From NCBI GenBank assembly GCA_018064445.1, contig JAGHVE010000069.1, positions 1-32,429 on the forward strand: 32,429 nucleotides of DNA, written 5' to 3'. Position numbers and translations under genes: made by a program. The stretch is from Candidatus Cacconaster equifaecalis (GTDB lineage Bacteria > Bacteroidota > Bacteroidia > Bacteroidales > UBA932). The notes beneath the pieces are model-generated. The model ran no database searches, was not told where the DNA came from, and saw nothing but the letters and a program-made list of their open reading frames with translations. How positions within the stretch are numbered: position 1 is the stretch's first letter; every line of letters begins with the position of its first letter. Positions 9,867-31,175 of this stretch are shown here, in pieces.

Positions 9867-9879
9867 AGGACATCTATTA

Positions 9880-10074: not shown

Positions 10075-10090
10075 TGTCTTATGCTTCCAA

Positions 10091-10510: not shown

Positions 10511-10550
10511 CTTTCTATAAATTAAATTATACTAAACTTCTGTGTCTCAA

Positions 10551-10578
10551 TATTTTAGCCTTTTACAGGCATAAAATA
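10551..10578 (-). other. 5'-terminal hairpin of the rplP transcript
   Basis: On the minus-strand RNA, UAUUUUA (10578-10572) pairs with UAAAAUA (10557-10551), and GCCU (10570-10567) with AGGC (10561-10558), around a GUAAA loop with one bulged U. This gives 11 base pairs. It begins only a few bases after the start point predicted from the promoter at 10587-10617, so it would cap the mRNA. It lacks a following U-run, so it is not a terminator. A role in stability or ribosomal-protein feedback is inference. Confidence 0.55.
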
Positions 10579-10586
10579 CAGGGTTG

Positions 10587-10617
10587 CAAAGATACACAAT
10601 ATTTTTAATCCGCAAAA
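10587..10617 (-). promoter_or_regulatory. Bacteroidota-type promoter for rplP and the downstream spc/alpha genes
   Basis: On the minus strand there is TTTTG (10617-10613), an 18-base spacer, then TATCTTTG (10594-10587). This matches the phylum's -33 TTTG / -7 TAnnTTTG pattern. The predicted start is near 10580, giving a leader of about 70 bases before the rplP ATG. The -33 element sits within a small GCAAAA/TTTTGC palindrome. Confidence 0.75.
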
Positions 10618-10696
10618 CTTTTTTGCAGATTTTCGACAACTTTTTTTGAATACTAACTGCTGATTTTTCAGTCCGTTACCCCTATCGGAAAAATCT

Positions 10697-11752
10697 TCAT
10701 AAGGCCCGGTTTCGACCAACCTGAAGACCGGAGTGGAGAAGGGATGCGAACTCCTGACGTTCCTCGTAAGAAAGGAATTCCATCTCTATGGGCAGATAGA
10801 AAAGCCTCCGGCGGACATTATCCGACAGACGCCTTGCGCCGAACAGGCGCTGGGCATCCTTTTCCGTGGTAAGGAACATCGCACGGGGATGGGCCTCCGC
10901 AAATCCGTTGAACCTTCCGATATCAAATCTGTTGAACCGGTGATGGTCCGGGAAGGTCCTGTGATATATCCTGTCATACCTGTCCGTCAGATGCAGCAGC
11001 ATCGGAGTGTCGTCCCCGACACCGGAGAAGAGATAGACCTCCTTGGAATAGATGTATCTCCTGTCGGCATCCTCCCCGAAAACGGGTACGGGCTGGAGAT
11101 ATTTCACGACAGTGAAAAAGACATTCCGGGACGGGTCGATTCCGTTGGCTTTCATCAAAGCCTCCCTCTCCTCCCGGTCAAGATGTCCGGCACATTTGGT
11201 TATCAGCACAATATCCGCCTTATCGAGACGCCGGGGAAGATCCCTCAACCGTCCCATAGGGAAGAGGTTGTCCTTCAGGACGGGCTTTGAGCTGTCGACA
11301 AGCACTATGTCCTTCGAATGAAGCAGTCTCCTGTACTGGAATCCGTCATCCAGGATGATAACCTGCGGACGCTCGGATTCCGGAAGGGAAAGAAGATTTC
11401 CGATCGCCCTCTCCCTGACAGAATCGACTGCCACAAGAATCTCCGGGAACTTTCTTTTTATCTGGAGAGGCTCGTCACCCACTTTGTCAACTGTATCCTG
11501 CGCGTCGACCATCAGGAACCCTTTTGTCCTGCGCCTGTATCCGCGTGAAACGACGGCGATGCGGTACTCTCCGCCGAGGATTCTGACAATCGCCTCCACC
11601 GCAGGAGTCTTGCCGGTGCCGCCCATCGAGACATTGCCTACCGATATGACCGGCACGTCGAAGGAGACTGTTTCCTTCCTGCCACTCTCATAACTCCTGT
11701 CCCTGTACTTCAAATACAGGTAGTATGGAAAAAGTAGATATTTGCTAATCAT
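10697..11752 (-). CDS. lpxK: tetraacyldisaccharide 4'-kinase (lipid A)
   Basis: LpxK phosphorylates the 4' position of the lipid A disaccharide at the inner membrane. The 351 residues begin with a hydrophobic anchor (MISKYLLFPYYLYLKYRDRS), then show the P-loop VGNVSMGGTGKTP (Lys48, Thr49), which is the LpxK-type Walker A. The Walker B-like LDDGFQYRRL and the later FTVVKYLQPVP and FPDHHRF also fit. It overlaps dus by 4 bases (ATGA) and is the last gene of the glgA-like/DUF4270/dus/lpxK group. No clear intrinsic terminator follows before the rplP promoter. Confidence 0.95.
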   Translation of the reverse strand: MISKYLLFPYYLYLKYRDRSYESGRKETVSFDVPVISVGNVSMGGTGKTPAVEAIVRILGGEYRIAVVSRGYRRRTKGFLMVDAQDTVDKVGDEPLQIKRKFPEILVAVDSVRERAIGNLLSLPESERPQVIILDDGFQYRRLLHSKDIVLVDSSKPVLKDNLFPMGRLRDLPRRLDKADIVLITKCAGHLDREEREALMKANGIDPSRNVFFTVVKYLQPVPVFGEDADRRYIYSKEVYLFSGVGDDTPMLLHLTDRYDRIYHRTFPDHHRFNRFDIGRFNGFAEAHPRAMFLTTEKDAQRLFGARRLSDNVRRRLFYLPIEMEFLSYEERQEFASLLHSGLQVGRNRAL

Positions 11753-12723
11753 CCCCAGACTTCATTTATATGGTCCAGAAGGGAGAACAGTTCCTGAGGG
11801 TCGGTCGAGGTCACAAGTTTGAGCCTTGTCTCCTTGAAATTGTCCAGACCTTTGAAATAACAGCTCAGATGCCTGCGCATCTCGAGGATGCCCACCTTCT
11901 CCCCCTTTATCTCCAAAGATTTGGCAAGATGCCTCTTTGCCAGCTCAACCCTCTCGGACACGCTCATCGGCTCGAGTATCTCCCCTGTCTGAAGGAAGTG
12001 CTTCACCTCCCTGAAAATCCAGGGATGCCCGAAACTGGCCCTTCCAATCATCACGGCATCGACCCCATAACGGTCGAACGCATCCTTCGCCTGCTGCGGG
12101 GTCGTTATGTCCCCGTTGCCTATAATCGGAATGCGCATCCTGGGATTGGCCTTCACCTTCCCTATCAGTGTCCAGTCCGCCTGCCCCTTGTACATCTGGG
12201 CCCGGGTCCTGCCGTGAATCGTCAAAGCCTCGATGCCCGCATCCTGCAGACGCTCCGCAAGCTCGACTATGATTTTGCTGTCGTCATCCCAGCCGAGCCT
12301 CGTCTTGACCGTGACCGGCAGCTTCACAGCGTCCACCACGCTTCGGGTGATTTCCACCATCCTGTCGGGAAAACGCATCATCCCGCTGCCGGCACCCCGC
12401 CTCGCTATCTTGTTCACCGGGCATCCGAAATTGATGTCGATGAAATCCGGGCCGGCCTCCTGGGCACGTACCGCCGCCTCAACCATAGCTTCCGGAATAT
12501 GGCCGTAAATCTGTATACCGATGGGTCTCTCATAGTCGAATATGCGCATTTTCGCCAGCGTCTTCGCCGCATCACGGATAAGACCGTCGCTGGAGATGAA
12601 CTCCGTATACATCATATCGGCGCCGAAGCCCTTGCAGATGTAGCGGAACGTAAGATCCGTCACATCTTCCATAGGGGCCAGAACTACCGGCCGGGGACCC
12701 AATTCAATATTCCGAATTTTCAC
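11749..12723 (-). CDS. dus: tRNA-dihydrouridine synthase (DusB-like)
   Basis: This FMN enzyme reduces uridines in the tRNA D-loop. The 324 residues form an FMN TIM barrel (about 1-240) beginning with PVVLAPMEDVTDLTFRYICK. The catalytic Cys is Cys101 in FIDINFGCPVNKIARRGAGS. Further family blocks are VKTRLGWDD, LTIHGRTRAQMYKGQADW, PIIGNGDI and DAVMIGRASFGHPWIF. A small helical tRNA-binding domain follows. It is 15 bases downstream of the DUF4270 gene and overlaps lpxK by 4 bases. The NIFR3/DusB group is inferred from motif style only. Confidence 0.93.
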   Translation of the reverse strand: MKIRNIELGPRPVVLAPMEDVTDLTFRYICKGFGADMMYTEFISSDGLIRDAAKTLAKMRIFDYERPIGIQIYGHIPEAMVEAAVRAQEAGPDFIDINFGCPVNKIARRGAGSGMMRFPDRMVEITRSVVDAVKLPVTVKTRLGWDDDSKIIVELAERLQDAGIEALTIHGRTRAQMYKGQADWTLIGKVKANPRMRIPIIGNGDITTPQQAKDAFDRYGVDAVMIGRASFGHPWIFREVKHFLQTGEILEPMSVSERVELAKRHLAKSLEIKGEKVGILEMRRHLSCYFKGLDNFKETRLKLVTSTDPQELFSLLDHINEVWG

Positions 12724-12738
12724 AGCGCCGGGGACTGC

Positions 12739-14079
12739 TCAGTCAAGCAGAAGACTGTAAGTGAATCTCAAATAGGGATGGCGTTCGGCACCGGTTCCGT
12801 TGATGACTCCCATCGAATAATTCTTGTAGTCGAGGAAACTTCCTTCTGTGGTGGAATAGGTTCCCATCATCCAGATGTCATCAAGATAGGTCAGATCCCT
12901 GTCATCGGTCCGAAGCAGTTTCTGGATATATATGCTCGCATCCGACTTGTATTGGAACAGCGAAAGATTGAGCTCGCCGTGGTCCATATCAGCATCGGCG
13001 ATCTCCTCAATCGGGCAGAAAGTCACGCGGCCCGAGGTGTCCCGGTAGCGTTTGCACGGGAAGAGATTCGAAGGATAAGCCTTGTATATCTCACCGTCAC
13101 CTGCATATTCGAAGGGGAATACAACCGAAGCCTTTGTAAGAAGCATCCGCGAAAGCTCTATATTGTTCTTGTCGGCCCACCCCCTGATTGCATCCTTGAT
13201 TTCCCTGGCCTTGATTTTTGGCTTCACGCCGCAGAAACCTTCATAATAGAGAGCCTCGGAAGGGTCGGCCTGAGCATATTCCTGAGTGCTGGACTCGTAA
13301 CGGCATACCGAATAGTATGCGCCGAGAGAGAATTCCACGGTGGTGTCGCGCCTGATTCCCGCACTGTTTGTCGAGGTGTATGTCAGAGTCATATAGGAAT
13401 AGGCCAGATTGATTCTGTTCAACCGGCCTCCGAGGTCAAGTTCCTCCACGTCATCGGTCTTTATCACTATTCCGTAGAATTTCTCCATAAACAGTTCCGC
13501 GCTGTCGAGCTGCTGGAAGGTCATATTCAGGATGGGGCGGGCAAAATCCTCCGTCAGATAGAGTTTTATCTCATCCCCTCCGGTATATACGGCATTCTCC
13601 TTGAGGATTGACTTCGTCCCGTATTTGTCCGGTGTTATCGAATTGTTGTATATCAGGGAAGAATCCAGCTTGACATTCAGCTGATAGGCATAGATGTTCT
13701 GGGGGATCACAGCCTGGTCTTCAGTAAGACTCTGATTGCCCTCGATGGAAAGAATCGCGACCATCTCCTTGAATACCGGCTCGCCCCCTATCACGAGGGA
13801 ATCATAGGTAGGGGTTATGGAAAAGGCCGATTCGGCATAGAATCTTCCGCACATAGGGGTGTTGATTGCCCCGAAAACGGCACTCGCCCCCAGATTTGTC
13901 TGGATGCTGTCGGCCATATCCATACAGACCGGCAACGGAATTTCCGTCACTTTGACAGATATGTCCTGATTTGCCGGAACGTACATCGACCCCAGAGTAT
14001 GGTCGACATTGATGCAGGAACAAACGAACAGCGCGACTGCAACGGCCGCCATCACCACACGGAACCCGGAATTTCTCAT
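12739..14079 (-). CDS. DUF4270-like lipoprotein
   Basis: The 446-residue protein starts with a basic n-region and a hydrophobic segment that ends at a lipobox, VCSC-I, with lipidated Cys22 predicted, so it is a membrane lipoprotein. The mature part is rich in beta-prone, Tyr/Thr/Ser-containing stretches, with no enzyme motif seen. The pattern (LG near residue 29, SAVFGAINTPMCGRFYAESA, FYGIVIKTDD) and the position after the GT5-like gene resemble the DUF4270 family of Bacteroidota. Its start overlaps the upstream stop by 4 bases, which indicates coupling. Function is unknown; an envelope or glycan-linked role is a guess from context. Confidence 0.65.
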   Translation of the reverse strand: MRNSGFRVVMAAVAVALFVCSCINVDHTLGSMYVPANQDISVKVTEIPLPVCMDMADSIQTNLGASAVFGAINTPMCGRFYAESAFSITPTYDSLVIGGEPVFKEMVAILSIEGNQSLTEDQAVIPQNIYAYQLNVKLDSSLIYNNSITPDKYGTKSILKENAVYTGGDEIKLYLTEDFARPILNMTFQQLDSAELFMEKFYGIVIKTDDVEELDLGGRLNRINLAYSYMTLTYTSTNSAGIRRDTTVEFSLGAYYSVCRYESSTQEYAQADPSEALYYEGFCGVKPKIKAREIKDAIRGWADKNNIELSRMLLTKASVVFPFEYAGDGEIYKAYPSNLFPCKRYRDTSGRVTFCPIEEIADADMDHGELNLSLFQYKSDASIYIQKLLRTDDRDLTYLDDIWMMGTYSTTEGSFLDYKNYSMGVINGTGAERHPYLRFTYSLLLD

Positions 14080-14894
14080 CTTATCTCGTCATAGAACCGA
14101 TCCACCGCCCCGACTGTCTCAGGGTCGGACGGGTCAAACACCTTGAACTGGGCAACAGGTATGCCGGACTTTTCAATATATGACCGAATCTCTTCGGAAA
14201 TCGCTTCTGTTCCCGCTATCACGCCATCCGCATACCGGACAGCAAGTTTTGCAAGCGAAGCGACATCGCAACCGCCGGCCTCCTCCACGTCGCCTCCGGC
14301 CAACCCCGACGCTTCCAGTTTGGAAACCAGGCCTTCATTGAATTTCTCACCCGCCCTGTCATTGAAAAGGGATACGACAACCTTGGTATCTTCGAACAGG
14401 GGGTCATTGTTGTAGAGTCTTTTCAGCATCACGGGCACCAGATGCGAAATCCATCCTATGCAATGGACCACGTCAGGCTTCCACCTGAGCTTCTTGACCG
14501 TTTCAAGGACTCCGTGGGCGAAGAAAATGGCTCTTTCATCATTGTCGGAAAAGAATTTGCCCTCCGCATCACAATCTACGGCCTTTCTATGAAAATAATC
14601 CTCATTGTCAATGAAATAGACCTGCATTCTCGCCGCGGCAATAGAAGATACCTTGATGACCAGAGGGTGGTCGGCGCCGTCAATCACCAGGTTCATACCG
14701 GAAAGCCGTATCACCTCGTGAAGCTGGTTGCGTCTTTCGTTGATCAGGCCGTATCTTGGCATAAAGGCGCGTATTCCGCCTCCAAGCTCCTGTATCCCGG
14801 ACGGCAGATATCTGCCGACTGCGGAAATGTCCGATTCGGGCAGATAAGGGAATATCTCCGAACAGACATAGAGTACTTTTTTCGTCTCTTCCAT
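14076..14894 (-). CDS. glgA: one-domain GT5-type glycogen/starch synthase-like protein
   Basis: The protein resembles the N-terminal Rossmann domain of glycogen synthase: KKVLYVCSEIFPYLPESDIS, LGGGIRAFMPRYGLINERRN, MQVYFIDNEDYFHRK, then WKPDVVHCIGW and YADGVIAGTEAISEE. At 272 residues it has only half of a normal GlgA (about 480); the C-terminal GT-B half is absent, and the KTGGL nucleotide-sugar loop is replaced by PESDISAVGRYLP. Short forms like this are common in Bacteroidota, so it is not a truncation. The start is taken as ATG 14894 (MEETKKVLYV); ATG 14906 would leave only about 13 bases of leader. Whether it makes glycogen is uncertain. Confidence 0.75.
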   Translation of the reverse strand: MEETKKVLYVCSEIFPYLPESDISAVGRYLPSGIQELGGGIRAFMPRYGLINERRNQLHEVIRLSGMNLVIDGADHPLVIKVSSIAAARMQVYFIDNEDYFHRKAVDCDAEGKFFSDNDERAIFFAHGVLETVKKLRWKPDVVHCIGWISHLVPVMLKRLYNNDPLFEDTKVVVSLFNDRAGEKFNEGLVSKLEASGLAGGDVEEAGGCDVASLAKLAVRYADGVIAGTEAISEEIRSYIEKSGIPVAQFKVFDPSDPETVGAVDRFYDEIR

Positions 14895-14924
14895 TTTCAA
14901 AAACATTCTTGGGCAAATTCGTTA

Positions 14925-14932
14925 CAAAGGTA
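14925..14932 (-). promoter_or_regulatory. -7 element of the glgA-like operon promoter
   Basis: TACCTTTG on the minus strand fits TAnnTTTG. The predicted start lies about 25 bases before ATG 14894. No convincing -33 TTTG is visible at the expected distance, so the promoter call is moderate. It faces away from the ftsX promoter 15 bases away. Confidence 0.5.
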
Positions 14933-14947
14933 ATAATTTTTTTTGAC

Positions 14948-14955
14948 TATCTTTG
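14948..14955 (+). promoter_or_regulatory. -7 element of the ftsX promoter
   Basis: TATCTTTG on the plus strand fits the -7 consensus and ends 13 bases before ATG 14969, predicting a leader of fewer than about 10 bases. The -33 position is occupied by the complement of the opposing -7 element, so the two promoters may exclude each other. Confidence 0.55.
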
Positions 14956-14968
14956 CGACAAATCCCGT

Positions 14969-15847
14969 ATGACTGAAAACAACAAACATATTATCCGCAG
15001 AAGACTGATAAAATCCTATGCAACATCCGTAATCAGCATAGCGATGGTCCTTTTCCTGCTCGCATCGGCCGCCATCTTCTCCATCAACGCGGCAGGCATC
15101 GGCGATTACTTCAAGGAGAATATGTCCTTCTCCGTATTCTTCAAGCAAACCACCTCTGAAAAGGATGCGGCAGACTTCCAAAACAGAATCAGCAACAGGG
15201 ATTTCGTCAAGGATTGCCGATATATCTCGAAAGAAGAGGGCGAGAAGGAGATGGAATCGCTTCTCGGAGAGGATTTTCTCGAGGTCTTCGAGTCCTCCCC
15301 CATCCCCATCTCCCTTGAACTGCACCTCAACGCCGGTGTCGTGACCGGAGATTCTCTGGAAACGATAAAACGAGAAATCCTCTCCGACCCGATCGTCGAG
15401 GATGTCGTATATCAGACAAATATGGTAGAGGCGCTGAACGCCAATCTCAAGAAGGTGACCCGGGTCATCGCCGTGGTGGCAGTCATCCTTCTGGCAATCT
15501 CCTTCGCCCTGATAAGCAACACCGTGAGGCTCAACATCCATACCCGCAGATTCACCATCCATACGATGAGTCTGGTGGGGGCGAAGCGTTCCTTCATAGC
15601 GCGTCCGTTCGTGCTGCGGGCAATCCTTCAGGGGTTTGTCGCCAGCGTGATGGCAGACGGAGTCCTGCTTCTTGTCATATCCCGCATACGTGAGAAATCA
15701 GAACTTCTTTCTCTGGTAATGGACACAGGGGCAACCCGCCTCGTCCTGGCCTGCACGATTCTTGCGGGCATTCTGATATGCGTGATATCGACAGCCATCG
15801 TCGTGAGCAAAATGGCCTACATATCCAAAGATGACTTATATTATTAA
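14969..15847 (+). CDS. ftsX: cell division protein FtsX (permease-like)
   Basis: FtsX pairs with FtsE in the divisome and controls peptidoglycan hydrolases. The start is ATG 14969 (MTENNKHIIRRRLIKSYATS), because an upstream in-frame start at 14909 would precede the promoter. The 292 residues show a first membrane segment (about 20-40), a large extracytoplasmic loop (about 45-160, containing SVFFKQTTSEKDAADFQ), then three more segments (near 170-190, 220-240 and 265-285). HTRRFTIHTMSLVGAKRSFI is the family's FtsX signature between segments. ftsE is not nearby. DUF3098 and uppP follow directly, the usual Bacteroidota order. Confidence 0.92.
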   Translation: MTENNKHIIRRRLIKSYATSVISIAMVLFLLASAAIFSINAAGIGDYFKENMSFSVFFKQTTSEKDAADFQNRISNRDFVKDCRYISKEEGEKEMESLLGEDFLEVFESSPIPISLELHLNAGVVTGDSLETIKREILSDPIVEDVVYQTNMVEALNANLKKVTRVIAVVAVILLAISFALISNTVRLNIHTRRFTIHTMSLVGAKRSFIARPFVLRAILQGFVASVMADGVLLLVISRIREKSELLSLVMDTGATRLVLACTILAGILICVISTAIVVSKMAYISKDDLYY

Positions 15848-15858
15848 TATTCATACCA

Positions 15859-16086
15859 ATGAGTGACTTTTCCCTTTCAAGAAAGAGTGTCAAGACAATA
15901 ATCGTCGGCCTTGTGCTTATGGTTTCCGGATACATCCTGCTCATAGGAGGTTCATCTGATTCCACGACCATATTCAACCCTGCAATGTTCAACGTCCAGA
16001 GGATGGTGATATCGCCTCTGCTGACGGTGCTGGGCATAGTCATCGTAATCACCGCCATCATCAGGAAGCCGAAAGAGGAGGAGTGA
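15859..16086 (+). CDS. DUF3098 small membrane protein
   Basis: The 75-residue protein has two hydrophobic segments (about 12-30 and 50-68) separated by SSDSTTIFNPAMFNVQRMVI, and a charged C-terminus (RKPKEEE). This matches DUF3098, found almost always between ftsX and uppP in Bacteroidota; function unknown. The stop codon overlaps the uppP ATG by one base (TGATG). Conserved location suggests a link to division or carrier-lipid recycling, but that is inference. Confidence 0.85.
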   Translation: MSDFSLSRKSVKTIIVGLVLMVSGYILLIGGSSDSTTIFNPAMFNVQRMVISPLLTVLGIVIVITAIIRKPKEEE

Positions 16087-16874
16087 TGAACTGGTTTGAA
16101 GCACTGATACTGGGGCTGGTACAGGGTCTGACGGAATTTCTTCCCGTCAGCAGCAGCGGACACCTCACAATCGCAAAGGAACTGTTCGGCATAGAGACGG
16201 CGGATCTAAGTTTTGAAGTAATCACCCACGCAGCGACGGTCTGTGCCACGATAATCGTATTCCGCAAGGAGATATGGACCCTTCTCCAGGGCCTGTTCAA
16301 ATTCAGGTACAACAGCGAGACCCGTTATGTCCTGATGATTGCCGTATCGATGATTCCCGTATTCATCGGGGGTATGTTCTTCAAGGACCAAGTGGAACTT
16401 CTCTTCAGCAACGGACTGCCCGTAGTGGGGTGCGCACTGCTTGTCACAGCCGCACTGCTTCTGTTTTCCGGCCGTCACACCGAAAGACAGACAGCCGACG
16501 TTTCCTACAAATCCGCATTCATTATAGGTCTGGCCCAGGCAGTGGCCGTAGTTCCGGGTCTGTCCCGAAGCGGCTCGACGATTGCGACAGGTCTGATCTG
16601 CGGAGTGAAAAGAGATCAGGCCGCCCAGTTCTCTTTCCTGATGGTCCTGATTCCCATATTGGGAGAGGCCTTTCTGGAAGTTGTCGGAGGTGACTTTTCT
16701 TCCAGTGCCGTCGGAACTCTTCCTCTTCTGACCGGATTCCTGGCGGCCTTCGTTTCCGGACTGTTCGCCTGCAAATTCATGATTGCCCTTGTGAAAAAGG
16801 CGAAATTGCAGTGGTTCGCACTTTACTGTGCCCTTGTCGGTGTCGCCTGCCTGATATGGAATGCTACTTTGTAA
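16086..16874 (+). CDS. uppP: undecaprenyl-diphosphatase UppP (BacA)
   Basis: UppP dephosphorylates undecaprenyl diphosphate at the membrane, renewing the carrier for cell-wall and surface glycan synthesis. About eight membrane segments occur in 262 residues. The two signature motifs are present: EFLPVSSSGHL (Glu17, Ser/Gly/His to 26) and AQAVAVVPGLSRSGSTIA. ATG 16086 is chosen; a GTG at 16083 is three bases upstream in frame. The gene is coupled to DUF3098 (one-base overlap) and the lpxH start lies inside its last codons. Confidence 0.96.
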   Translation: MNWFEALILGLVQGLTEFLPVSSSGHLTIAKELFGIETADLSFEVITHAATVCATIIVFRKEIWTLLQGLFKFRYNSETRYVLMIAVSMIPVFIGGMFFKDQVELLFSNGLPVVGCALLVTAALLLFSGRHTERQTADVSYKSAFIIGLAQAVAVVPGLSRSGSTIATGLICGVKRDQAAQFSFLMVLIPILGEAFLEVVGGDFSSSAVGTLPLLTGFLAAFVSGLFACKFMIALVKKAKLQWFALYCALVGVACLIWNATL

Positions 16875-19451: not shown

Positions 19452-19466
19452 CGGCCCGTTCCGGAA

Positions 19467-19706: not shown

Positions 19707-19737
19707 AGTATTGGTTTTGGTTAGTATTTGAAAAATA

Positions 19738-20736
19738 TTAATCGTCAGTTAGCGAGAATCTGTGGAAAGCGATAACTTTCGCCTCTTTGTCAACGGCTGC
19801 GATGGCATCCTTTACAGATACCTTGCCGTCACCCATCTGATACTCCTGTTCCTCGAGAGTGCACTCCTTGAAAAACTTCTGAACACGGCCGTTGGCAATG
19901 TTCTGAATCATCTGCTCGGGAAGGTTGGCAGCCTTTTCGGCGGCAACTTTCACTTTGATTTCACGAGCCTGCTGAGCCTGCTCGGGAGTGAGCCAGCCCT
20001 TTGCAGTATTGGATTCGATGTGGTCTTCGCTGTCGCAGTGTGCGGGATTGATGCCCGCTTTCTTGAGAGCTGCGTCAACGGCTTTCTGAATCTGTTCCTC
20101 TTTGGTCTTCTCAACGGCTACCTGACGCTCTTTCTCAACGACCTCTGCAGGGCAGTCGGCTGCTGAAACAGAAACGGGGTTCATTGAAACAACCTGCATT
20201 GCCACGCCCTTGCCCAATTCCTCGGGAACGACTTTGTTGAAGGCGACGATTGCACCCAACTTGCCGTTGATGGCGTGAACATACTGTGAGACGTAGGGAG
20301 CCTCAACCTTGCGATAGAAGGCAAGAGTGTGCTTTTCACCACTCTTTCCTGTCTGCTGGGAGATAGCGTCCTCAACTGTCTCTCCGTCTGCTGTCTTGCA
20401 GGCCTTCAGAGCCTCGACGTCTTCGGGGAAGTTTTTGATGGCGGCATCGGCGATGGCGTTTGCCAAGGCCTGGAACTCTGAATTCTGAGAAACGAAGTCA
20501 GTTTCACAACCAAGGCAGATAATGATAGCCCTGTTGCCTTCAACGCGTACCTTTACAGCGCCTTCAGTAGTTTCACGGTCAGCACGTTTTGCTGCCACGA
20601 GCTTGCCTTTTTCACGGATGATTTCCTGTGCGCGTGCGAAATCGCCTTCAGCCTCAACGAGAGCCTTCTTGCAATCCATCATTCCGGCACCTGTCATTTT
20701 GCGCAATTTTGCGACATCTGCTGCTTTAATTTCCAT
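19738..20736 (-). CDS. tsf: elongation factor Ts
   Basis: EF-Ts is the nucleotide exchange factor for EF-Tu. The 332 residues start [20 protein letters not shown] followed by [20 protein letters not shown], the N-terminal UBA-type domain, and carry [20 protein letters not shown] near the C-terminus. Length is above the E. coli 283 but typical of Bacteroidota, with an extra Lys/Glu-rich central stretch (about 205-290). It follows rpsB by 17 bases, the universal order. Confidence 0.97.
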
Positions 20737-20753
20737 ATTTCCAGAGTATAACG

Positions 20754-22122: not shown

Positions 22123-22130
22123 GCTGCGAT

Positions 22131-22583: not shown

Positions 22584-22643
22584 TTTGTTGATTTTTAGGT
22601 TAATACTTAGTTTAGTTGCGACTCCTTGCATTTCAAGGGGCTG

Positions 22644-22674
22644 CAAATATACACATTTTTTCCTTTGCATCAAA
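22644..22674 (-). promoter_or_regulatory. promoter of the rplM-rpsI-rpsB-tsf operon
   Basis: On the minus strand there is TTTG (22674-22671), a 19-base spacer and TATATTTG (22651-22644), an exact fit to the Bacteroidota pattern. The predicted start is near 22638, giving a leader of about 55 bases to GTG 22583. Its -33 lies between the -33 and -7 of the opposing rdgB promoter. Confidence 0.82.
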
Positions 22675-22694
22675 TTTTTTACTTGCTACCTTTG
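22664..22694 (+). promoter_or_regulatory. promoter of rdgB-recO
   Basis: TTTG (22664-22667), a 19-base spacer and TACCTTTG (22687-22694) match the consensus. The -7 element ends only 7 bases before ATG 22702, so the mRNA should be leaderless or carry just a few leader bases. Confidence 0.82.
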
Positions 22695-22701
22695 TTCCGT
22701 T

Positions 22702-24407: not shown

Positions 24408-26560
24408 TTGACTTCCTTCAGGTAGACTCGTTTCTCCGCCTCAATCTTGCGGTACTTGTCGAAATCCTCGACGGGGCGCAGGAATCCGATAACCCTGGTC
24501 CACTGCCTCATCGGCGCTCCGCACTTGGGACATACGTCCAAGGGCCTCTTGACGATATGGTGGCAGTTGAGATTGGTGCACTCGCTGTTGGGGATGTTGA
24601 AGGTGAAGTATGAAGTTCCGTTCTGGATTGCGAAATCGATGAGTTGCAGATACTGGAACTTGGAAAGATGTTCCTCAAGGTTGCAGTGCAGGCCCACACC
24701 GCCGTCAAGCAGTTCGGTGAACTCACGTCCGTGGAGACGGAAACGGTCCAGTACGGAGGTGTTCGGGTCCTCTGCCAGATAGAAGTAGGAATTATAAAGA
24801 ACCCTGCCTTCCGGCACCCAGTATCCTTCAGCCTTGTCCCAGCGGTAGTTCTTGCTGCTGAGCCCCTCTGCGGGAACGAACTCCTGATTGAACAGGAAGT
24901 CCTTCTCCGAGTGAAGTTTGTTCTGTTCGCTGATTGTTCCGGTCACAAGACGGCAGAACTGCTTGTAGCCCTCGTTGTACCCGCAGGTCAGTCCGACGAA
25001 CTCGGCTGCTTCGTTGATACCGTTCTCCCCTATTGTGCTGAAGAGCTTGTTCATCTTGATGTATCCGGAGTTGGAGGCATTCAGCATACCGGCCTTTTCG
25101 GTCTCATAAAGGAGGGTCTTGTAAGCCTTGTGGTATTTGTACACGCGATCGAGGATGGCGCTGATATACTGCTTGAAATCACCGCTCAATTCGCTGAAGT
25201 TCTCTTTCAGGAATTCGCGGCTGTAATCACGTTCCTTCGCCCAGTCCTGAATTATCCTGTTGAGATTGAGGGTGATGACGTTGGCGCTTCCGGTCTGGAC
25301 TCCGGTGAGTCCGTTGGTGAAGGTGAATACGTTTTCCTGTATCTCATTGCGCAGACGGCAGCAGCTGGCCAGAGCGTTCGGGTTGTCGGAGATATAGGTG
25401 AAGAAGGAGTGTCCCTCGGCATACATCTCGGCGGTGAAGGCCTTGTACTCCTTGTCCATAATGTCGCGGCCGTTGGAAAGAAGGGCCATAGTCTCCACGG
25501 GGAAGGTCAGAAGGGTGCGTGAGCGCTCCTCATTGAACCACTTCATAAAGGTGCGCTGCAGGAAGTCGACCCTTTCCCAGGACGGCTTGGTCCCGTCGGG
25601 GAAATAGAAGTCATCAAACATCGCGTGCCAGTAGTTGCTGTCATAATAGCTGATGTTCGTGAAGGGGCTCTGGTAACTGCGGTTTCCTGCAGGCTGGTTG
25701 ATTCCGTAGACAATCTGCTGGAAGTATTGCTTGATGGTGCTCAGGATTGTTCGGGAAGGCAGGACGCAGACTATCTCGTCTGTGCGCTTGTGATAGTCCT
25801 CTCCGAAATCTTTTGCACAATAGTAGTCGAATACGTTGAAGAATTCACCGAAGGCGACGGCACCCTTACACTGAGCCGAGAGCAGGAATGCAAGGTTGCA
25901 GAACTGGCCGCAGAAGCTGCTCAGGTTCTTCGGCGCACTGGCCTTCAGGCCGTCGAGGCCGCTTGTCCCTTCCATAACGAGGGGATAGAGGGATACCGCC
26001 TCACAATAGTTCTTGACGGCCGGTGAGGAAGCCTCGTCGTGAACATATATTATGTGGTGCTCAAGGTCCGCCGCGTAATTGTCCGCCACTTCCGGGAACA
26101 TCTCCTTGAGTTTCTTCTTCATCCTGTAACGCTGAATCTGCCTGTTGAGGGTCTTGAACACCTCACCGTCAAGATTGGAGACGTTCTTGATGGCGACGTT
26201 GGCGTTCGCGTCGGTCTCGGATGATGTTGCCGCGTTGTCACCGGATGCGGCGTAGTTGTCCATATAGTCCACCCTCTCCTTTATGAAACGGAGGTCCTTG
26301 TGCTTCTCACGGTAAAGAATGTAGGCTTTCGCGACTTCGAAGTGTCTCTCATACATCAGCTGGGTCTCCACTATGTCCTGCAGTTTCTCAACTTTGAACG
26401 TGTAGTCGTCGTTGAACATTCCGAACAGGTGAAGCAGGCTCTGGCGGAATTCCACGGGCATGCTCACTTTTCCACAGGCTGCGAAGGCAGCATTGACGGC
26501 ATTCTCTATCTTACTGAAATCGAAGCTCTTAATCTCGCCGTTTCTTTTAATTACTTTCAT
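24404..26560 (-). CDS. nrdD: anaerobic ribonucleoside-triphosphate reductase (class III)
   Basis: NrdD reduces NTPs to dNTPs anaerobically. The 718 residues begin with an ATP-cone domain (about 1-90: MKVIKRNGEIKSFDFSKIEN ... YILYREKHKD) for allosteric control, then the ten-stranded barrel with SSFCGQFCNLAFLLSAQCKG. A C-terminal zinc knuckle is suggested by ECTNLNCHH and CPKCGAP. The glycyl-radical loop is RVIGFLRPVEDFDKY with Gly at about residue 692. nrdG follows with a 4-base overlap. Upstream is a 102-base gap with an inverted repeat. Confidence 0.97.
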   Translation of the reverse strand: MKVIKRNGEIKSFDFSKIENAVNAAFAACGKVSMPVEFRQSLLHLFGMFNDDYTFKVEKLQDIVETQLMYERHFEVAKAYILYREKHKDLRFIKERVDYMDNYAASGDNAATSSETDANANVAIKNVSNLDGEVFKTLNRQIQRYRMKKKLKEMFPEVADNYAADLEHHIIYVHDEASSPAVKNYCEAVSLYPLVMEGTSGLDGLKASAPKNLSSFCGQFCNLAFLLSAQCKGAVAFGEFFNVFDYYCAKDFGEDYHKRTDEIVCVLPSRTILSTIKQYFQQIVYGINQPAGNRSYQSPFTNISYYDSNYWHAMFDDFYFPDGTKPSWERVDFLQRTFMKWFNEERSRTLLTFPVETMALLSNGRDIMDKEYKAFTAEMYAEGHSFFTYISDNPNALASCCRLRNEIQENVFTFTNGLTGVQTGSANVITLNLNRIIQDWAKERDYSREFLKENFSELSGDFKQYISAILDRVYKYHKAYKTLLYETEKAGMLNASNSGYIKMNKLFSTIGENGINEAAEFVGLTCGYNEGYKQFCRLVTGTISEQNKLHSEKDFLFNQEFVPAEGLSSKNYRWDKAEGYWVPEGRVLYNSYFYLAEDPNTSVLDRFRLHGREFTELLDGGVGLHCNLEEHLSKFQYLQLIDFAIQNGTSYFTFNIPNSECTNLNCHHIVKRPLDVCPKCGAPMRQWTRVIGFLRPVEDFDKYRKIEAEKRVYLKEVK

Positions 26561-26605
26561 AGGTGTTTTTCGTAGAGGGTGAATCGGGTACGAAGTTATG
26601 ACATA

Positions 26606-26638
26606 TTCCGGTAGGAAATACGCCCTTCCCCACCGGAA
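26606..26638 (-). repeat. inverted repeat in the nrdD upstream gap
   Basis: A perfect 7-base inverted repeat, TTCCGGT (26606-26612) and ACCGGAA (26632-26638), encloses an inner GGAA/TTCC pair (26614-26617 and 26626-26629). As RNA it gives an 11-bp broken stem lying between pepP and nrdD. It lacks a U-run, so it is not a standard intrinsic terminator. It does not resemble an NrdR box. Operator, processing site or leader structure are all possible. Confidence 0.5.
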
Positions 26639-26662
26639 ATTTCAACATCTTTTCAACACGGA

Positions 26663-28051
26663 TTACTGCATCTGCTCCTCAACGTCCTCCACGGTAATCG
26701 GGAGGCGTCTTGATCCGAGGAGGCGGGCTCCGTTCCCGGTGATGAGCAGGTCATCTTCCAGACGGATTCCTCCGAAGTCGTAATACTCCTCAAGTTTCCC
26801 GAAGTTGACGAAGCGGGCGTTGTGTCCCGACTCCTTCCACTTTTCTATGAGGGCAGGTATGAAATATATCCCCGGCTCGTCCGTAACGACGTAACCCGGC
26901 CTGAGAGACCTTGCCATCCGAAGAGAGCCAAGTCCCAGCTGGGAGGCTCTTGTCTGCCCGGGATCGTATCCGACAAGGTTTTCCCCGAGCCCCTCCATAT
27001 CGTGTACGTCAAGACCCATATTGTGGCCCAGTCCGTGAGGCATGAAGAGGCCCTGTACTCCGGCCTCCAACATCTCTTCAAGGTCTCCGTGGACAAGGCC
27101 CAGATTGGAAAGACCTTTGAGGATGATTCGGGATGCGTCTAAATGGAGTTCCCTGTAGGTGATGCCGGGACGGGCTGCATCCAGCACATAATTGTTCGCA
27201 GTGGAAACTATGGTATATATGTCGGCCTGACGGCTGGAGAACTTTCCTCCGACCGGAATGGTTCTGGTATTGTCCGAACAGTAGTTTGATTCGATTTCGC
27301 AGCCTGCATCAATCAGCAGAAGCCTGCCGGGAGTCAGAATCCCTTCGTGTCCGTGGTTGTGCATCGTCTCTCCGTGCTGGCTGAGAATCGTGGGGAAACT
27401 CATACGCGGACCTCCTGCCGCCGCGACACTTTCCATAATGGCGACAACTTCTTTCTCGACCATTCCCGGCCTTGCCGCCTTCATCGCAGCGTAATGCATT
27501 GCATATCCGAGGTTTGCCGCCTTGTCAAGTTCCGCAATCTCACACGGTTCCTTGACAAGCCTCAGGTCGATGACAGCCTTTATGAACTCCGTGCTTGCCG
27601 CCTCTTTCAAGGATGAAAACGGTATTCCGAGAGTCTCGTGCAGGAAAATCCGGTTGTCGTGCCTGTACTGGGGCAGGAAATGTATTTTCCGTCCTGCCTT
27701 GACAGCGGAAATGATATCCTCTTCCAGACAGTGCAGAGGCTTGGTGTTGCCAACGCCCACTTTCTCCGCCAACTGGCCGATGGAAGGCAGAGGCCCTGTC
27801 CAGATGATGTCCTCTATATCCACGTCATCTCCGTAGATTGTCTCCACTCCGCTGTCCAGGTCAACCGTTGCGGCAAGAGACGGAATGTCCAGCCCGAAGA
27901 AATAGAGGAACGAGCTGTCCTGACGGAAGCCGTAACAGTTGTCGGAATAATTGCAGGGACTTTCGTTGTTGCCCAGGAACAGAGCTATGCCTGAGGTAAC
28001 ATTGTTTTTCAGTCTGTTCCTTCTGTTGATGTATGTCTGTCTTTCGAACAT
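26663..28051 (-). CDS. pepP: Xaa-Pro aminopeptidase (M24B)
   Basis: The enzyme cleaves N-terminal residues before proline. The 462 residues have a creatinase-type N-terminal domain (about 1-170: FERQTYINRRNRLKNNVTSG, YGFRQDSSFLYFFGLDIP) and a pita-bread metallopeptidase domain. Metal ligands are recognisable in LLIDAGCEIESNYCSDNTRT (two Asp), PHGLGHNMGLDVHDMEG (His), TDEPGIYFI (Glu) and GGIRLEDDLLIT (Glu). It lies 13 bases after murA. Peptide use inside the cytoplasm is the likely role. Confidence 0.94.
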   Translation of the reverse strand: MFERQTYINRRNRLKNNVTSGIALFLGNNESPCNYSDNCYGFRQDSSFLYFFGLDIPSLAATVDLDSGVETIYGDDVDIEDIIWTGPLPSIGQLAEKVGVGNTKPLHCLEEDIISAVKAGRKIHFLPQYRHDNRIFLHETLGIPFSSLKEAASTEFIKAVIDLRLVKEPCEIAELDKAANLGYAMHYAAMKAARPGMVEKEVVAIMESVAAAGGPRMSFPTILSQHGETMHNHGHEGILTPGRLLLIDAGCEIESNYCSDNTRTIPVGGKFSSRQADIYTIVSTANNYVLDAARPGITYRELHLDASRIILKGLSNLGLVHGDLEEMLEAGVQGLFMPHGLGHNMGLDVHDMEGLGENLVGYDPGQTRASQLGLGSLRMARSLRPGYVVTDEPGIYFIPALIEKWKESGHNARFVNFGKLEEYYDFGGIRLEDDLLITGNGARLLGSRRLPITVEDVEEQMQ

Positions 28052-28064
28052 TGGTATCCTTGTC

Positions 28065-29378
28065 TTATTTTACACGTGTTATTTTCGCCCCGAGTTCGTT
28101 CAGTCGGACGTCTATGTTCTGATATCCACGGTCGATCTGCTCTATGTTCTCGATGACGGATGTCCCGTTTGCGCTCATCGCGGCAAGCAGCATTGCGATT
28201 CCGGCACGGATATCGGGGGAAAGAAGTTCTCCGCAGCGCAGCTGGAATTTGTGGTCGTGGCCGATGACAACCGCCCTGTGAGGGTCGCACAGAATAATCT
28301 GGGCCCCCATATCTATCAGTTTGTCCACGAAGAAGAGTCTGCTTTCAAACATTTTCTGATGAATCAGCACGCTGCCCTTGCATTGGGTTGCCACCACCAG
28401 GATGACACTCAGAAGGTCAGGCGTCAGCCCCGGCCAGGGGGCATCGGACACGGTCATTATGCTCCCGTCCATAAAAGATTCGATTTCATAACATTCCTGA
28501 GATGGAACGTAAAGGTCATCGCCCCTCTGTTCCAGTTTGATACCCAATCTGTGGAAACATTCGGGGATTATTCCCAAATCCTTGCAGGATGCATCCCTGA
28601 TTGTAAGGCTGCTTCGGGTGATGGCCGCCATACCGATAAAAGAGCCCACCTCAATCATATCGGGAAGCATACGGTGTTTGGTGCCGTGAAGAGAGGAGAC
28701 TCCCTGTATCGTAAGAAGATTGGAGCCGATGCCCTCTATGCGGGCGCCCATTGAAACCAGCATACGGCACAACTGCTGCACATACGGCTCGCAGGCGGCA
28801 TTGTATATCGTAGTCTGCCCTTTTGCCATAACGCTCGCCATCAATATGTTGGCTGTTCCCGTAACCGAAGCCTCATCCAGCAGCATATAGCTTCCCTTGA
28901 GGCCTCCCGCAGGCGACTGAAGGTGAAAAGCGTTGAAACCCTCGTCAAATTTGAAGGTGGCCCCGAGTTTGAGGAATCCCATAATGTGGGTGTCCACCCT
29001 CCGGCGGCCGATCTTGTCCCCTCCCGGCTTGGCGAAGAAGGCCTCGCCGAATCTGGCGAGCAGCGGTCCAGTAATCATCATCGAGCCTCTGAGAGCTGCG
29101 CATTTCTGCACGAAATCAGGAGTATGTATATACCGGCGGTCGATGTTTCTGGCGGTAAAAGCGTAGCAGCCCTTACTGGGGTTGTTCACCACGACACCCA
29201 TCCCCTTGAGGAGGGAAATGAGAGTCATTACATCCTGAATTTCCGGGACATTGTCAATCGTGACCGTATCCTCTGTCAGAAGCACTGCACTGATGACCTG
29301 AAGAGCCTCGTTCTTGGCTCCCTGCGGTGTGATGGACCCGCTCAGGCGGCGTCCTCCTTCGACTATGAAACTGCTCAT
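28065..29378 (-). CDS. murA: UDP-N-acetylglucosamine 1-carboxyvinyltransferase
   Basis: MurA makes the first committed precursor of peptidoglycan, using phosphoenolpyruvate. The 437 residues start MSSFIVEGGRRLSGSITPQG, with GAKNEAL (Lys22/Asn23). Two EPT domains are evident. In the catalytic loop AKPGGDKIGRRRVDTH, residue 121 is Asp where E. coli has Cys115. Cys-to-Asp enzymes (for example in Mycobacterium tuberculosis and Chlamydia) are active and insensitive to fosfomycin, so intrinsic insensitivity is expected. It is one base from the murB stop. Confidence 0.97.
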   Translation of the reverse strand: MSSFIVEGGRRLSGSITPQGAKNEALQVISAVLLTEDTVTIDNVPEIQDVMTLISLLKGMGVVVNNPSKGCYAFTARNIDRRYIHTPDFVQKCAALRGSMMITGPLLARFGEAFFAKPGGDKIGRRRVDTHIMGFLKLGATFKFDEGFNAFHLQSPAGGLKGSYMLLDEASVTGTANILMASVMAKGQTTIYNAACEPYVQQLCRMLVSMGARIEGIGSNLLTIQGVSSLHGTKHRMLPDMIEVGSFIGMAAITRSSLTIRDASCKDLGIIPECFHRLGIKLEQRGDDLYVPSQECYEIESFMDGSIMTVSDAPWPGLTPDLLSVILVVATQCKGSVLIHQKMFESRLFFVDKLIDMGAQIILCDPHRAVVIGHDHKFQLRCGELLSPDIRAGIAMLLAAMSANGTSVIENIEQIDRGYQNIDVRLNELGAKITRVK

Positions 29379-29379
29379 A

Positions 29380-30438
29380 CTATATGTGTTCTACCTCGGG
29401 TTCGAGGGTTATTCCAAATTTGTCACGGACAGCGTCCGTAATGTACTTCTCAAGAGAAAGTATATCTCCGGCAGTGGCTTTGCCGTCAGCATTGACTATT
29501 ACAAGCGGCTGCTTCTCCCACACGGCGGCACTTCCCTTCCGGCATCCCTTCAACCCGCAGCTGTCAATCAGCCAGGCGGCGGGAATTTTCACTTTCCCGT
29601 CGGGAAGGTCATAATGAGGGCCGCCCGATATCGCCTCGCTCACCACGGGATTCTTGAAAAAGCTGCCCGCACTGCCTGTCTTCCTGACATCGGGCAGTTT
29701 GCCTTCGCGGATTACAAGGACCGTTTCCCGGACCAGCATAGGGGTCAGAGGCAGAGCGGCGGAGGGTTTTCCTGCCGAGAAAAGAGGATCGTATGGGTTT
29801 GCGGAGGGCTGGAACAGTTCCACGTTGCGTTCCACTTCCTCCCTGAGGGCACCGTATTCCAGGCGGGGGCAGAAATCGGACCTTAAGTGGAATCTGACGG
29901 CAACGACTACGTATCGGCCGGAAGCGTGCTTGAAGAATGAATCGCGGTAGGCAAACGCACATTCGCGGGCAGTGAGGGTGACGAATTTCCGTTCCTGAAT
30001 GTCGAAGCACTCCACGTTTTCGACAATGTCCGCCGCCTCAACTCCGTATGCCCCGACGTTCTGGACTGCGGATGCTCCCGCGCTCCCCGGAATGCCTGAA
30101 AGATTCTCAGGTCCCCAGTATCCCTTTTTGGCAGCCCACAGGCAGAAATCATCCATTCTCTCCCCGGCACCGACGGTAACATACACATCGTCACCGCTGC
30201 TTTTCTGACCGTCAATCTCTATCCCTTTTATCGCACTGTGCAGGAGAGTCCCTTCGAAATCTTTCGTAAACAGAAGGTTGGAACCCTCCCCGATTGAACG
30301 GACAGGCTTCCTCAACCCGTCCCAGTCTATGGAAAGAAGATCCGAAGGGGACGTATATTCTATGAAAAGGGCTGCCTTCCCCCCGATTCCGAGGGTGTTC
30401 AGATCCTTGAGGTCCCTGTCAGCCGTTCTACGTATCAT
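29380..30438 (-). CDS. murB: UDP-N-acetylenolpyruvoylglucosamine reductase
   Basis: MurB reduces the MurA product to UDP-MurNAc with FAD and NADPH. The 352 residues correspond to the long type I form. FAD-binding blocks include TLGIGGKAALFIEY, GEGSNLLFTKDFEGT and LSGIPGSAGASAVQNVGAYG. The catalytic SAGSFFKNPVVSEA (Ser) and final Glu-containing region ITLEPEVEHI are present. murB and murA are adjacent and in pathway-reverse order on one transcript, preceded at 7 bases by an outer-membrane-type gene. Confidence 0.97.
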   Translation of the reverse strand: MIRRTADRDLKDLNTLGIGGKAALFIEYTSPSDLLSIDWDGLRKPVRSIGEGSNLLFTKDFEGTLLHSAIKGIEIDGQKSSGDDVYVTVGAGERMDDFCLWAAKKGYWGPENLSGIPGSAGASAVQNVGAYGVEAADIVENVECFDIQERKFVTLTARECAFAYRDSFFKHASGRYVVVAVRFHLRSDFCPRLEYGALREEVERNVELFQPSANPYDPLFSAGKPSAALPLTPMLVRETVLVIREGKLPDVRKTGSAGSFFKNPVVSEAISGGPHYDLPDGKVKIPAAWLIDSCGLKGCRKGSAAVWEKQPLVIVNADGKATAGDILSLEKYITDAVRDKFGITLEPEVEHI

Positions 30439-30445
30439 TTCTACT

Positions 30446-31084
30446 CTAGAACCTGAAACCGAGAGCGACGTTCACCTGCCTGGTCGTGATGTTTGAGCCA
30501 AGGAGGGGCGTTTTATTTTTGTAGAGAGGCGAAATGGCCCCTTCGTATGCCACGCCGACAAGAAAATCACCTATGAACACCTTTGCTCCGGCGTGCCAGT
30601 TGATTCCGAAACGGTTGAAACCCAATCCGCCTTTGTCAACGGGCTTGAACATATCCGTTTTCAAACTTCCTATCGCAGTCTGGCCCCAAACATAACCGAC
30701 TCCGTCAACTCCGGCATAAGGGATAACTGTCAGGGGATCCCAGTCAAAGGCATACATCAGGCTCAGAGGAACCTTTACTGACACCATTCGAAGACTCAAA
30801 ATATCATCGTTCTTGTTCCAGAAAGAATACTGGCCGGCAAGACCGTATTCTATGAAGAACGGGGTCTCGTGGGAAAGAATGTTTGCGTAGGTAACACCTG
30901 CCGTAAACGAGGAGCACTGTTTTTTGGACGCACCCGTGTCCATTTGCAACAAATCTCCGTTATCATAAATTCCCAAAGGGTTATATGATGCGAAGAATGT
31001 CCCGAAGGACTCGTCCTGAGCGTTTGCGGTGGAAGAGAGCGCAAACAATATGGCGCCAATTGCCAAAATCTTGAGTTTTTTCAT
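30446..31084 (-). CDS. outer-membrane beta-barrel-like protein, unknown function
   Basis: The 212-residue protein has a clear signal peptide (MKKLKILAIGAILFALSSTA, cleavage after ANA at about residue 22). The mature part alternates aromatic and polar residues in the pattern of short membrane strands (for example FIEYGLAGQYSFWNK, INWHAGAKVFIGDFLVGVAY) and ends with Phe (ALGFRF), the sorting signal of barrel proteins. No enzyme motif is seen. It has its own promoter right after the rpsC terminator and leads murB-murA-pepP, with murB 7 bases on. An eight-stranded barrel is a guess. Confidence 0.75.
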   Translation of the reverse strand: MKKLKILAIGAILFALSSTANAQDESFGTFFASYNPLGIYDNGDLLQMDTGASKKQCSSFTAGVTYANILSHETPFFIEYGLAGQYSFWNKNDDILSLRMVSVKVPLSLMYAFDWDPLTVIPYAGVDGVGYVWGQTAIGSLKTDMFKPVDKGGLGFNRFGINWHAGAKVFIGDFLVGVAYEGAISPLYKNKTPLLGSNITTRQVNVALGFRF

Positions 31085-31113
31085 ATTTTGGATTTTAGGA
31101 TTTTCACCGGAAA

Positions 31114-31121
31114 CAAAGATA
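31114..31121 (-). promoter_or_regulatory. -7 element of the OMP-murB-murA promoter
   Basis: TATCTTTG on the minus strand matches TAnnTTTG, 29 bases before the OMP ATG. The -33 position falls inside the rpsC terminator stem and shows no TTTG. The element begins 2 bases past the terminator's T-run. Confidence 0.55.
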
Positions 31122-31123
31122 GC

Positions 31124-31152
31124 AAAAAAAGTCCGACCCTTTCGGACCGGAC
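31124..31152 (-). terminator. intrinsic terminator after rpsC
   Basis: On the minus strand GTCCGGTCC (31152-31144) pairs with GGGTCGGAC (31139-31131), nine pairs including two G-T wobbles, around a GAAA loop, followed directly by seven Ts (31130-31124). It lies 24 bases after the rpsC stop and would end the rpsS-rplV-rpsC transcript. Confidence 0.88.
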
Positions 31153-31175
31153 CTGTTTTTTAGGAACAATTAATG

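Follow-up and report, generated by a model that had tools for sequence, protein, structure and literature searches.

Why rpsC and rplP lie 20.7 kb apart in this locus is the question addressed here. The window (the whole stretch of DNA that was analysed, 32,429 nucleotides) is the entire contig C111 of a draft genome of 1.71 Mb in 161 contigs. The initial annotation had described the rpsC–rplP adjacency as highly conserved, and this was borne out: the two genes were adjacent in 142 of the 142 sampled Bacteroidota genomes outside the order that carry both, in a survey of genomes at least 90% complete that covered this junction only. We conclude, with a probability of about 0.85, that the gap reflects an old, clade-wide split of the superoperon by two breaks into three pieces, most likely separate transcription units, and not a local insertion.

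Results and Discussion

Genes Flanking and Filling the Gap

The features of the window are collected in Table 1. The break is real and falls exactly between rpsC and rplP, as previously annotated, with the matches to TIGR01009 and TIGR01164 standing 20.7 kb apart. The S10 core consists of seven genes (rplC-rplD-rplW-rplB-rpsS-rplV-rpsC). Canonical order is kept within rplC–rpsC and within rplP–rpoA, as seen in the relatives and, for the window, by ORF position; in the part of the spc-alpha piece that follows rplP, rpsQ was named by NCBIfam and the other genes from canonical order or ORF position only.

Table 1. Features of the window
Feature	Position	Strand	Evidence or remark
rplV (L22), member of the S10 core	31960..32388	-	TIGR01044, 93.9 bits; contig stops just past the gene
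rpsC (S3), final gene of the S10 core	31176..31958	-	TIGR01009, E 1.4e-83, 279.8 bits
Intrinsic-terminator-like hairpin and T run directly after rpsC	31129..31154	-	11 pairs, 6 GC
TATCTTTG, -7-type box before ORF 30446-31084	31114..31121	-	read by eye
Block of about 22 cellular genes, both strands	10511..31175		NCBIfam/Pfam searches and ORFs
Junction, 3' end of lpxK	10716..10721		blastn: rplP side matches G020 contig C5, lpxK side matches G020 contig C7
TTTG, -33-type element upstream of rplP	10613..10616	-	sequence reading
TATCTTTG, -7-type element, starts 84 nt before the rplP start codon	10587..10594	-	motif scan
rplP (L16), now leading the spc-alpha piece	10091..10510	-	TIGR01164, E 2.9e-55, 185.8 bits
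rpsQ	9612..9866	-	NCBIfam match
Remaining spc-alpha piece (rpmC, rpsQ ... secY ... rpoA), canonical order	1..10088	-	ORFs

NCBIfam matches were obtained for 18 genes of the block. Thirteen were above the curated cut-off (lpxK, dusB, fabF, tsf, rpsB, rpsI, rplM, rdgB, recO, nrdG, nrdD, murA, and murB) and five were below it (a GlgA N-domain, ftsX, uppP, lpxH, and an Xaa-Pro peptidase that Pfam places in M24). Two genes correspond to the Pfam families DUF4270 and DUF4294, one short ORF was taken as acpP from a reading of its sequence, and ORF 30446–31084 gave no family match in the NCBIfam and Pfam searches. These family searches returned no mobile-element family or transposase among the block genes, in agreement with the earlier description of a block without mobile elements and with genes on both strands. 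Neighboring genes carry the protein names dipeptidase, gltS, and serine hydrolase; the clusters called aro, acpP, and peptidase were named by reading their sequences.

Distribution of the Split

Among genomes of the same genus that carry both genes, the adjacency was found in 0 of 30 (0 of 29 without the window), so the comparison of gene order with related Bacteroidales proposed earlier uncovered no congener with rpsC beside rplP. In the family, which we take to be UBA932 of GTDB, 8 of 99 genomes lacked one or both genes and were dropped. The two genes were apart in 70 of the remaining 91 genomes and adjacent in 21. Almost every genome here is a draft, "not adjacent" frequently stands for genes on separate contigs, and three of the 91 (G100, G123, and G141) yield partial matches only. 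The two states sort cleanly by genus, with 19 genera split and 6 adjacent. The genes were adjacent in 22 of 23 other Bacteroidales families, with one unresolved. When the loci were fetched, rpsC was followed directly by rplP on the same strand in 0 of 38 split genomes versus 17 of 17 intact family members. In G030, which has 7% contamination, a second, incomplete rpsC lies some 9 kb away from rplP.

Assembly Support for the Junctions

An artefact of assembly or binning, in which the window contig is chimeric and rpsC is truly adjacent to rplP, would be in keeping with a draft of so many contigs and with the fact that the lpxK–rplP junction occurs on this contig only, both sister contigs ending nearby. 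No counterpart of this junction was found by blastn in the sister genome G020, and the exact 20.7 kb layout is thus documented by this contig only. Contig C5 of G020 continues for 1.4 kb beyond rplP, enters a reverse-transcriptase ORF, and then ends, and contig C7 begins 131 bp ahead of its match to the window. No contig was found that joins C5 and C7 via the reverse-transcriptase flank, and short interspersed repeats occur in both genomes. Repeats of at least 12 nt were absent within 10500–10760 and within 31060–31200, each region being searched by itself. With regard to transposons at the junctions, the family matches of the block include no transposase, and the reverse-transcriptase ORF lies at the corresponding place in G020.

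The rpsC side is reproduced by G020, where C7 is collinear with the window from lpxK to rpsC. The separation itself is independent of the window contig, since it was seen within single contigs of 13 genomes from 7 genera (window included), with rpsC and rplP 10.7 to 453 kb apart; three of these are single-contig assemblies. These cases, together with the split state of 35 of the 80 named loci (some of which are the same genomes as the surveyed ones, e.g., L062 and G012) and the rplP motif of all 38 split genomes described below, make a chimeric contig a highly improbable source of the gap. Misassembly as the whole explanation was ruled out by the 13 single-contig cases; the exact junction at 10716–10721 may still be affected by it.

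A Second Break between rpsJ and rplC

The rpsC|rplP break is accompanied by a second one, rpsJ|rplC, which did not figure in the initial annotation. The resulting pieces are rpsL-rpsG-fusA-rpsJ, the seven-gene core from rplC to rpsC, and rplP to alpha. rpsJ was followed directly by rplC in 0 of the 37 split genomes for which rplC was fetched, versus 14 of 17 intact genomes, and rpsL-rpsG-fusA-rpsJ stays joined in 12 split loci. The window stops short of rplC, and in its genome rpsJ is found on contig C47 together with rpsG and fusA. The two breaks were observed together throughout: none of the fetched genomes from the 19 genera has only one of them. In G063, G064, G069, and G088, rpsJ and rplP keep the canonical order on one strand and stand 38–58 kb apart, separated by shared genes.

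The breaks may nevertheless be separate steps, because two genomes of genus g43 lack only the rpsJ–rplC link: in G137 and G148 rpsJ is unlinked from rplC and rpsC–rplP is intact (rplC begins 379 bp from the contig end in G148). On this view rpsJ|rplC would have broken in a wider group before the ancestor of the 19 genera lost rpsC|rplP, a sequence that would suit the wider fusA/rpsJ and rpsS/rplV gaps of some g33 genomes and the stepwise pattern of Brandis 2021 (PMC8046335). However, rpsJ adjoins rplC in the other g43 genomes G078, G112, and G126, which makes a separate origin of the g43 break more likely, and no fetched genome of the 19 genera is caught between the two states. We therefore consider two independent steps to be possible but rather unlikely.

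One Clade on the Tree

In the first tree (75 rows: 38 split and 17 intact family genomes drawn from the larger surveyed set, plus 20 of the 42 named intact loci), the 38 split genomes form one clade with an SH-aLRT of 100, and the state requires one change. In the second tree (128 rows, with 7 short split loci omitted), the 66 split rows likewise form one clade, although these rows are not all independent because some named loci and surveyed genomes are one genome. Three undecided rows were left uncounted. L067 and L072 fall within the split clade and L091 falls outside it. L072 (Candidatus Coprenecus merdigallinarum) groups with g30 and lacks rpsJ across 6.9 kb and rplP across 1.3 kb; the split locus of Candidatus Minthomonas equi stands beside g26. 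Among the split genera, g38, g47, and g49 branch early.

L091, from outside the family, has an isolated rplC–rpsC core, with no rpsJ in 6.9 kb upstream and no rplP in the roughly 700 bp to the contig end. It looks like an independent case of a loosened core, and on its account the split state would also have arisen elsewhere and the second tree would gain a change.

Layouts in Relatives

The initial annotation had offered an insertion or nested rearrangements as the origin of the gap. Nested rearrangements come close to the pattern in the relatives. A block inserted in this genome alone does not fit, since the break is common to 19 genera on one branch and comes with the second break, and it was ruled out by the family survey and both trees. 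Had the 20.7 kb been inserted between the two genes in this lineage, the order and orientation of the halves would be unchanged, and the halves do share one strand in canonical order. Similar gaps are present in G061 (another genus, 21.4 kb), G115 (10.7 kb), and G140 (18.2 kb), and that of G061 also holds pepP, murB, murA, and lpxK in the orientation of the window. Apart from the shared genes, however, the gap content differs among the window, G061, G115, and G140. An inserted segment also leaves the detached rpsJ, the congeners with the core reversed (G016 and G034) or 274 kb away (G029), and the ancestral position of the break on the tree to be explained, and we judge it quite improbable.

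In G016, G034, and G090 (the last from another genus), many of the block genes sit between rplP and rplC, and the S10 core is transcribed away from these shared genes. Because the core faces the other way in these three genomes, the same-strand 20.7 kb layout, correctly reported for the window, is probably secondary, a later rearrangement of two of the pieces. G061 speaks against this order of events, since a portion of the block is found there in the same orientation as in the window, and the polarity of the layouts is not proven. The positions of dnaA in the three single-contig genomes were set aside, dnaA not being established there as an origin marker.

Promoter Motifs, Terminators, and Leaders

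A TTTG/TANNTTTG-type motif is the promoter consensus of Bacteroidota according to PMC6847099. Such a motif is present ahead of rplP in 38 of 38 split and 1 of 17 intact genomes, and ahead of rplC in 37 of 37 split and 0 of 16 intact genomes; the scan permits TTG anywhere within a 10-nt stretch before the box, and the rates in dinucleotide shuffles were 4.8% and 2.5%. Among the split genomes, the 15 internal genes that were scanned yielded the motif 0 times. The same scan gave 0 of 11 split genomes ahead of rpsL (5 of 12 intact), and hence no promoter was located for the third piece.

Judged from sequence, the motifs at rplC and rplP would be working promoters, and the three pieces are probably transcribed separately. 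The search for terminators that gave the hairpin after rpsC in the window found 2 overlapping sites versus 0.6 expected in shuffles, and such terminators may insulate the pieces. The same hairpin follows rpsC in G020, and similar ones were seen by eye, uncounted, in several other split genomes.

With the rplC (35 rows) and rplP (27 rows) sets, RNAalifold returned an energy of 0, as it did for every shuffle of them; an 8-row set gave a z of -0.43. Rfam gave no match in the window. The rplC leader is well conserved; it opens with a short GC stem (by eye), and an A-rich stretch precedes the start codon.

A Proposed Course of Events

The split by two breaks would have occurred in the ancestor of at least 19 genera of one Bacteroidales family, in which the middle of the str-S10-spc-alpha superoperon, its seven-gene core, came away from both of its neighbors, rpsJ and rplP. 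The region would then consist of three transcription units (str plus rpsJ, the S10 core, and spc-alpha) that have since drifted apart. Three units are likely because rplC and rplP, which head the orphaned pieces, bear motifs of the Bacteroidota type. Stoichiometry could be held by promoter strength rather than by co-transcription.

Candidates for the first event are duplication with reciprocal loss, transposition, and nested inversions. Duplication with differential loss is favored because the cell would always retain an intact copy. Transposition alone predicts that rpsJ adjoins rplP, which was not observed.

A broader reading is that the clade has rewired the regulation of its ribosomal proteins into three unlinked regulons. 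A new control element, the rplC leader, would have taken over from co-transcription, and the seven-gene core, loose independently in L091, would be a natural module. This we regard as speculative and unlikely on present evidence.

Relation to Known Rearrangements

One large gut clade dispenses with an adjacency that is universal in the 142 sampled Bacteroidota outside the order. The intact sister genera within the family provide a natural experiment on whether co-transcription, matched stoichiometry, or inertia maintains the linkage. The break can serve to mark the clade in comparisons of synteny, and methods relying on ribosomal proteins that are linked on a single scaffold will recover the clade in pieces.

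The break is genuine and fixed in the clade, and the breakage of superoperons as a phenomenon is already known. A 2005 survey by Coenye and Vandamme is said to have covered the organisation and breakage of the S10, spc, and alpha clusters in prokaryotes. That survey is cited in passages of PMC8046335 and PMC3879981. PMC8046335 describes 163 events in 204 genomes, 115 of them rearrangements, and includes str-S10 breaks; there, as here, a conserved cluster of operons is broken up and its pieces drift further from one another. In contrast, 75 of those 115 rearrangements spare operons, whereas the two cuts described here fall within the classical S10 operon and have become fixed across 19 genera. 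The main text of PMC8046335 contains no word beginning with "bacteroid". No account of the present break was found in a literature search of titles and abstract openings, which is weak evidence because subscription journals fell mostly outside its coverage. The canonical Bacteroidales superoperon (g31, g32, g33, g44, g48, and part of g43) has the same gene order inside each piece; relative to it, the split clade is without the two junctions and carries the new motifs at rplC and rplP.

Extent of the rpsC-rplP Break

The separation of rpsC from rplP on the same strand, claimed in the initial annotation, was confirmed in the window, an entire single contig of a draft genome: the genes lie 20.7 kb apart. 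All genes named in the interval are cellular and none is mobile, as had also been claimed. The proposed check of gene order in relatives was carried out with 61 genomes (the window, 36 of the same genus, and 24 from other families of the order). Within the genus both genes were found in 30 genomes, window included, and are adjacent in none of them. Both were found in 23 of the 24 genomes from other families and are adjacent in 22 of these; in the other, G047, they are on two contigs. In the family of the window's genome (99 genomes, 25 genera) 91 genomes have both genes. The 21 with adjacency are confined to genera g31, g32, g33, g43, g44, and g48, and the 70 without it all come from the remaining 19 genera. 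The phylum survey covered 148 genomes, the window and others that are at least 90% complete and outside the order; among the Bacteroidota outside the order, rpsC adjoins rplP in 142 of the 142 with both genes (gap at most 317 bp). Neither gene was matched in five near-complete genomes (G179, G195, G234, G251, and G257), perhaps owing to missing stretches. The 80 named GTDB loci comprise 42 adjacent, 35 split, and 3 undecided.

Since two contigs can simply reflect a contig end, the flanks of the split genomes were fetched. In 35 of 38, the partner gene is absent from 1 kb or more on each side of the break, the exceptions being G081, G101, and the sister genome G020, whose contig was fetched as two pieces. 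Both genes are on a single contig in 13 genomes, separated by 10.7 to 453 kb, with 8 on the same strand in canonical order and 5 on opposite strands.

The 38 split genomes form one clade in a 17-protein tree of 75 rows (SH-aLRT 100), with one change of state. The same result came from a tree of six S10-core proteins with 128 rows, of which 66 are split, 59 intact, and 3 undecided; both trees were quick searches without bootstrap. One undecided row, locus L091 (JAISCQ010000253.1), lies outside the family beside the intact locus L141, and if it is scored as split, one more change is needed. It holds a complete, isolated rplC-to-rpsC core (6876-11558), with no rpsJ within 6.9 kb upstream, no rplP in the ~700 bp from rpsC to the contig end, and a hairpin and tandem repeats of ~48 bp downstream of rpsC up to that end. 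In L091 the same two cuts probably arose independently, although its rplP may start just beyond the contig end.

A Second Break between rpsJ and rplC

The order in intact members is rpsL-rpsG-fusA-rpsJ-rplC-rplD-rplW-rplB-rpsS-rplV-rpsC-rplP. rpsJ adjoins rplC in 14 of 17 intact genomes versus 0 of the 37 split genomes with rplC fetched. Among named loci with enough upstream room, rpsJ is absent from 19/19 split loci and no more than 1.6 kb away in 33/33 adjacent ones. It is retained at the end of rpsL-rpsG-fusA in 12 fully read split loci, and the moved piece is therefore the seven-gene core rplC-to-rpsC.

The three intact genomes without rpsJ beside rplC all belong to genus g43. In G096 the contig ends beside rplC; in G137 and G148 (L272-L275) rpsJ is apart from rplC with rpsC-rplP unbroken, which amounts to a partial break within an otherwise intact genus. 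In genus g33, loci L282 and L284-L287 have widened fusA-rpsJ and rpsS-rplV gaps in an otherwise canonical superoperon, and L282 has two rpsS matches. Genome G109 carries rpsJ in two copies (contigs C2 and C18).

Promoter Motifs

The Bacteroidota promoter consensus is TTTG/TANNTTTG, according to PMC6847099. The motif was found upstream of rplP in 38/38 split versus 1/17 intact genomes and upstream of rplC in 37/37 versus 0/16 (250 nt scanned for intact genomes); a 300-nt scan of intact genomes gave 2/17 and 0/17, respectively. Rates in dinucleotide shuffles were 4.8% and 2.5%. In 34 of 37 split genomes the rplC box begins 63-73 nt 5' of the start codon, and none of 15 internal genes tested in split genomes has the motif. 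Further matches in intact genomes were at rpsH (2/14), rpsE (1/13), and rpsJ (3/15). The leaders, that of rplC most of all, appear conserved in sequence.

Features of the window near rplP and rpsC
Feature	Position	Strand	Basis
rplP promoter box	10594-10587	-	motif
TTTG upstream of rplP	10616-10613	-	motif
Terminator-like hairpin directly after rpsC	31154-31129	-	

Judged from these motifs, the arrangement would work through three matched promoters, for the str piece with rpsJ, the S10 core, and rplP-to-alpha. The scan upstream of rpsL (0/11 split versus 5/12 intact) counts against this three-unit reading: with no motif in the 11 split genomes, the scan located no promoter for the str piece.

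Origin of the Arrangement

In G063, G064, G069, and G088, rpsJ and rplP are 38.5, 57.5, 46.7, and 42.9 kb apart, respectively, on the same strand in canonical order with common genes in the interval; it looks as though the central part of the original locus had gone missing. A single transposition as the first event predicts rpsJ adjoining rplP, an arrangement that was not observed. Nested inversions would fit, as would duplication followed by reciprocal loss. For other phyla, duplications and transposon-directed events are argued for in Brandis 2021 (PMC8046335).

Outward from rplP, two congeners of the window's genome (G016, G034) and G090 of genus g36 carry dipeptidase, gltS (absent in G090), DUF4294, lpxH, uppP, ftsX, glgA-N, DUF4270, fabF, acpP, tsf, rpsB, rpsI, and rplM; dusB, lpxK, and pepP lie beyond in varying order. 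Two peptidase-like genes follow, then rplC-to-rpsC transcribed away, ~37 to 75 kb from rplP start to rplC start. Many genes are common to these stretches and the window, with no match in the stretches to the window's murA, murB, nrdD, nrdG, recO, or rdgB. The initial annotation had both halves in canonical order and orientation. They do share a strand in the window, but relative to these three genomes its S10 core is inverted, as is its DUF4294-DUF4270 cluster, which suggests that the canonical-looking orientation is derived. G061 argues against this, as pepP, murB, murA, and lpxK lie between its rplP and rpsC, oriented as in the window.

Past rplP on contig C5 of G020, at the place matching the window junction, is a reverse-transcriptase ORF (L164:16043-17213; PF00078, 32.6 bits) with short interspersed repeats nearby; one repeat unit, ~37 bp long, occurs many times in G020 and several times in the genome of the window. 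Within the block, EF-Ts (19738-20736) has 332 aa versus ~271 profile positions, matched end to end, and the length suggests an insertion. The 276 aa protein at 14076-14906 has only the N-terminal starch/glycogen synthase domain, and such a protein adjoins a DUF4270 protein in many of the split genomes read.
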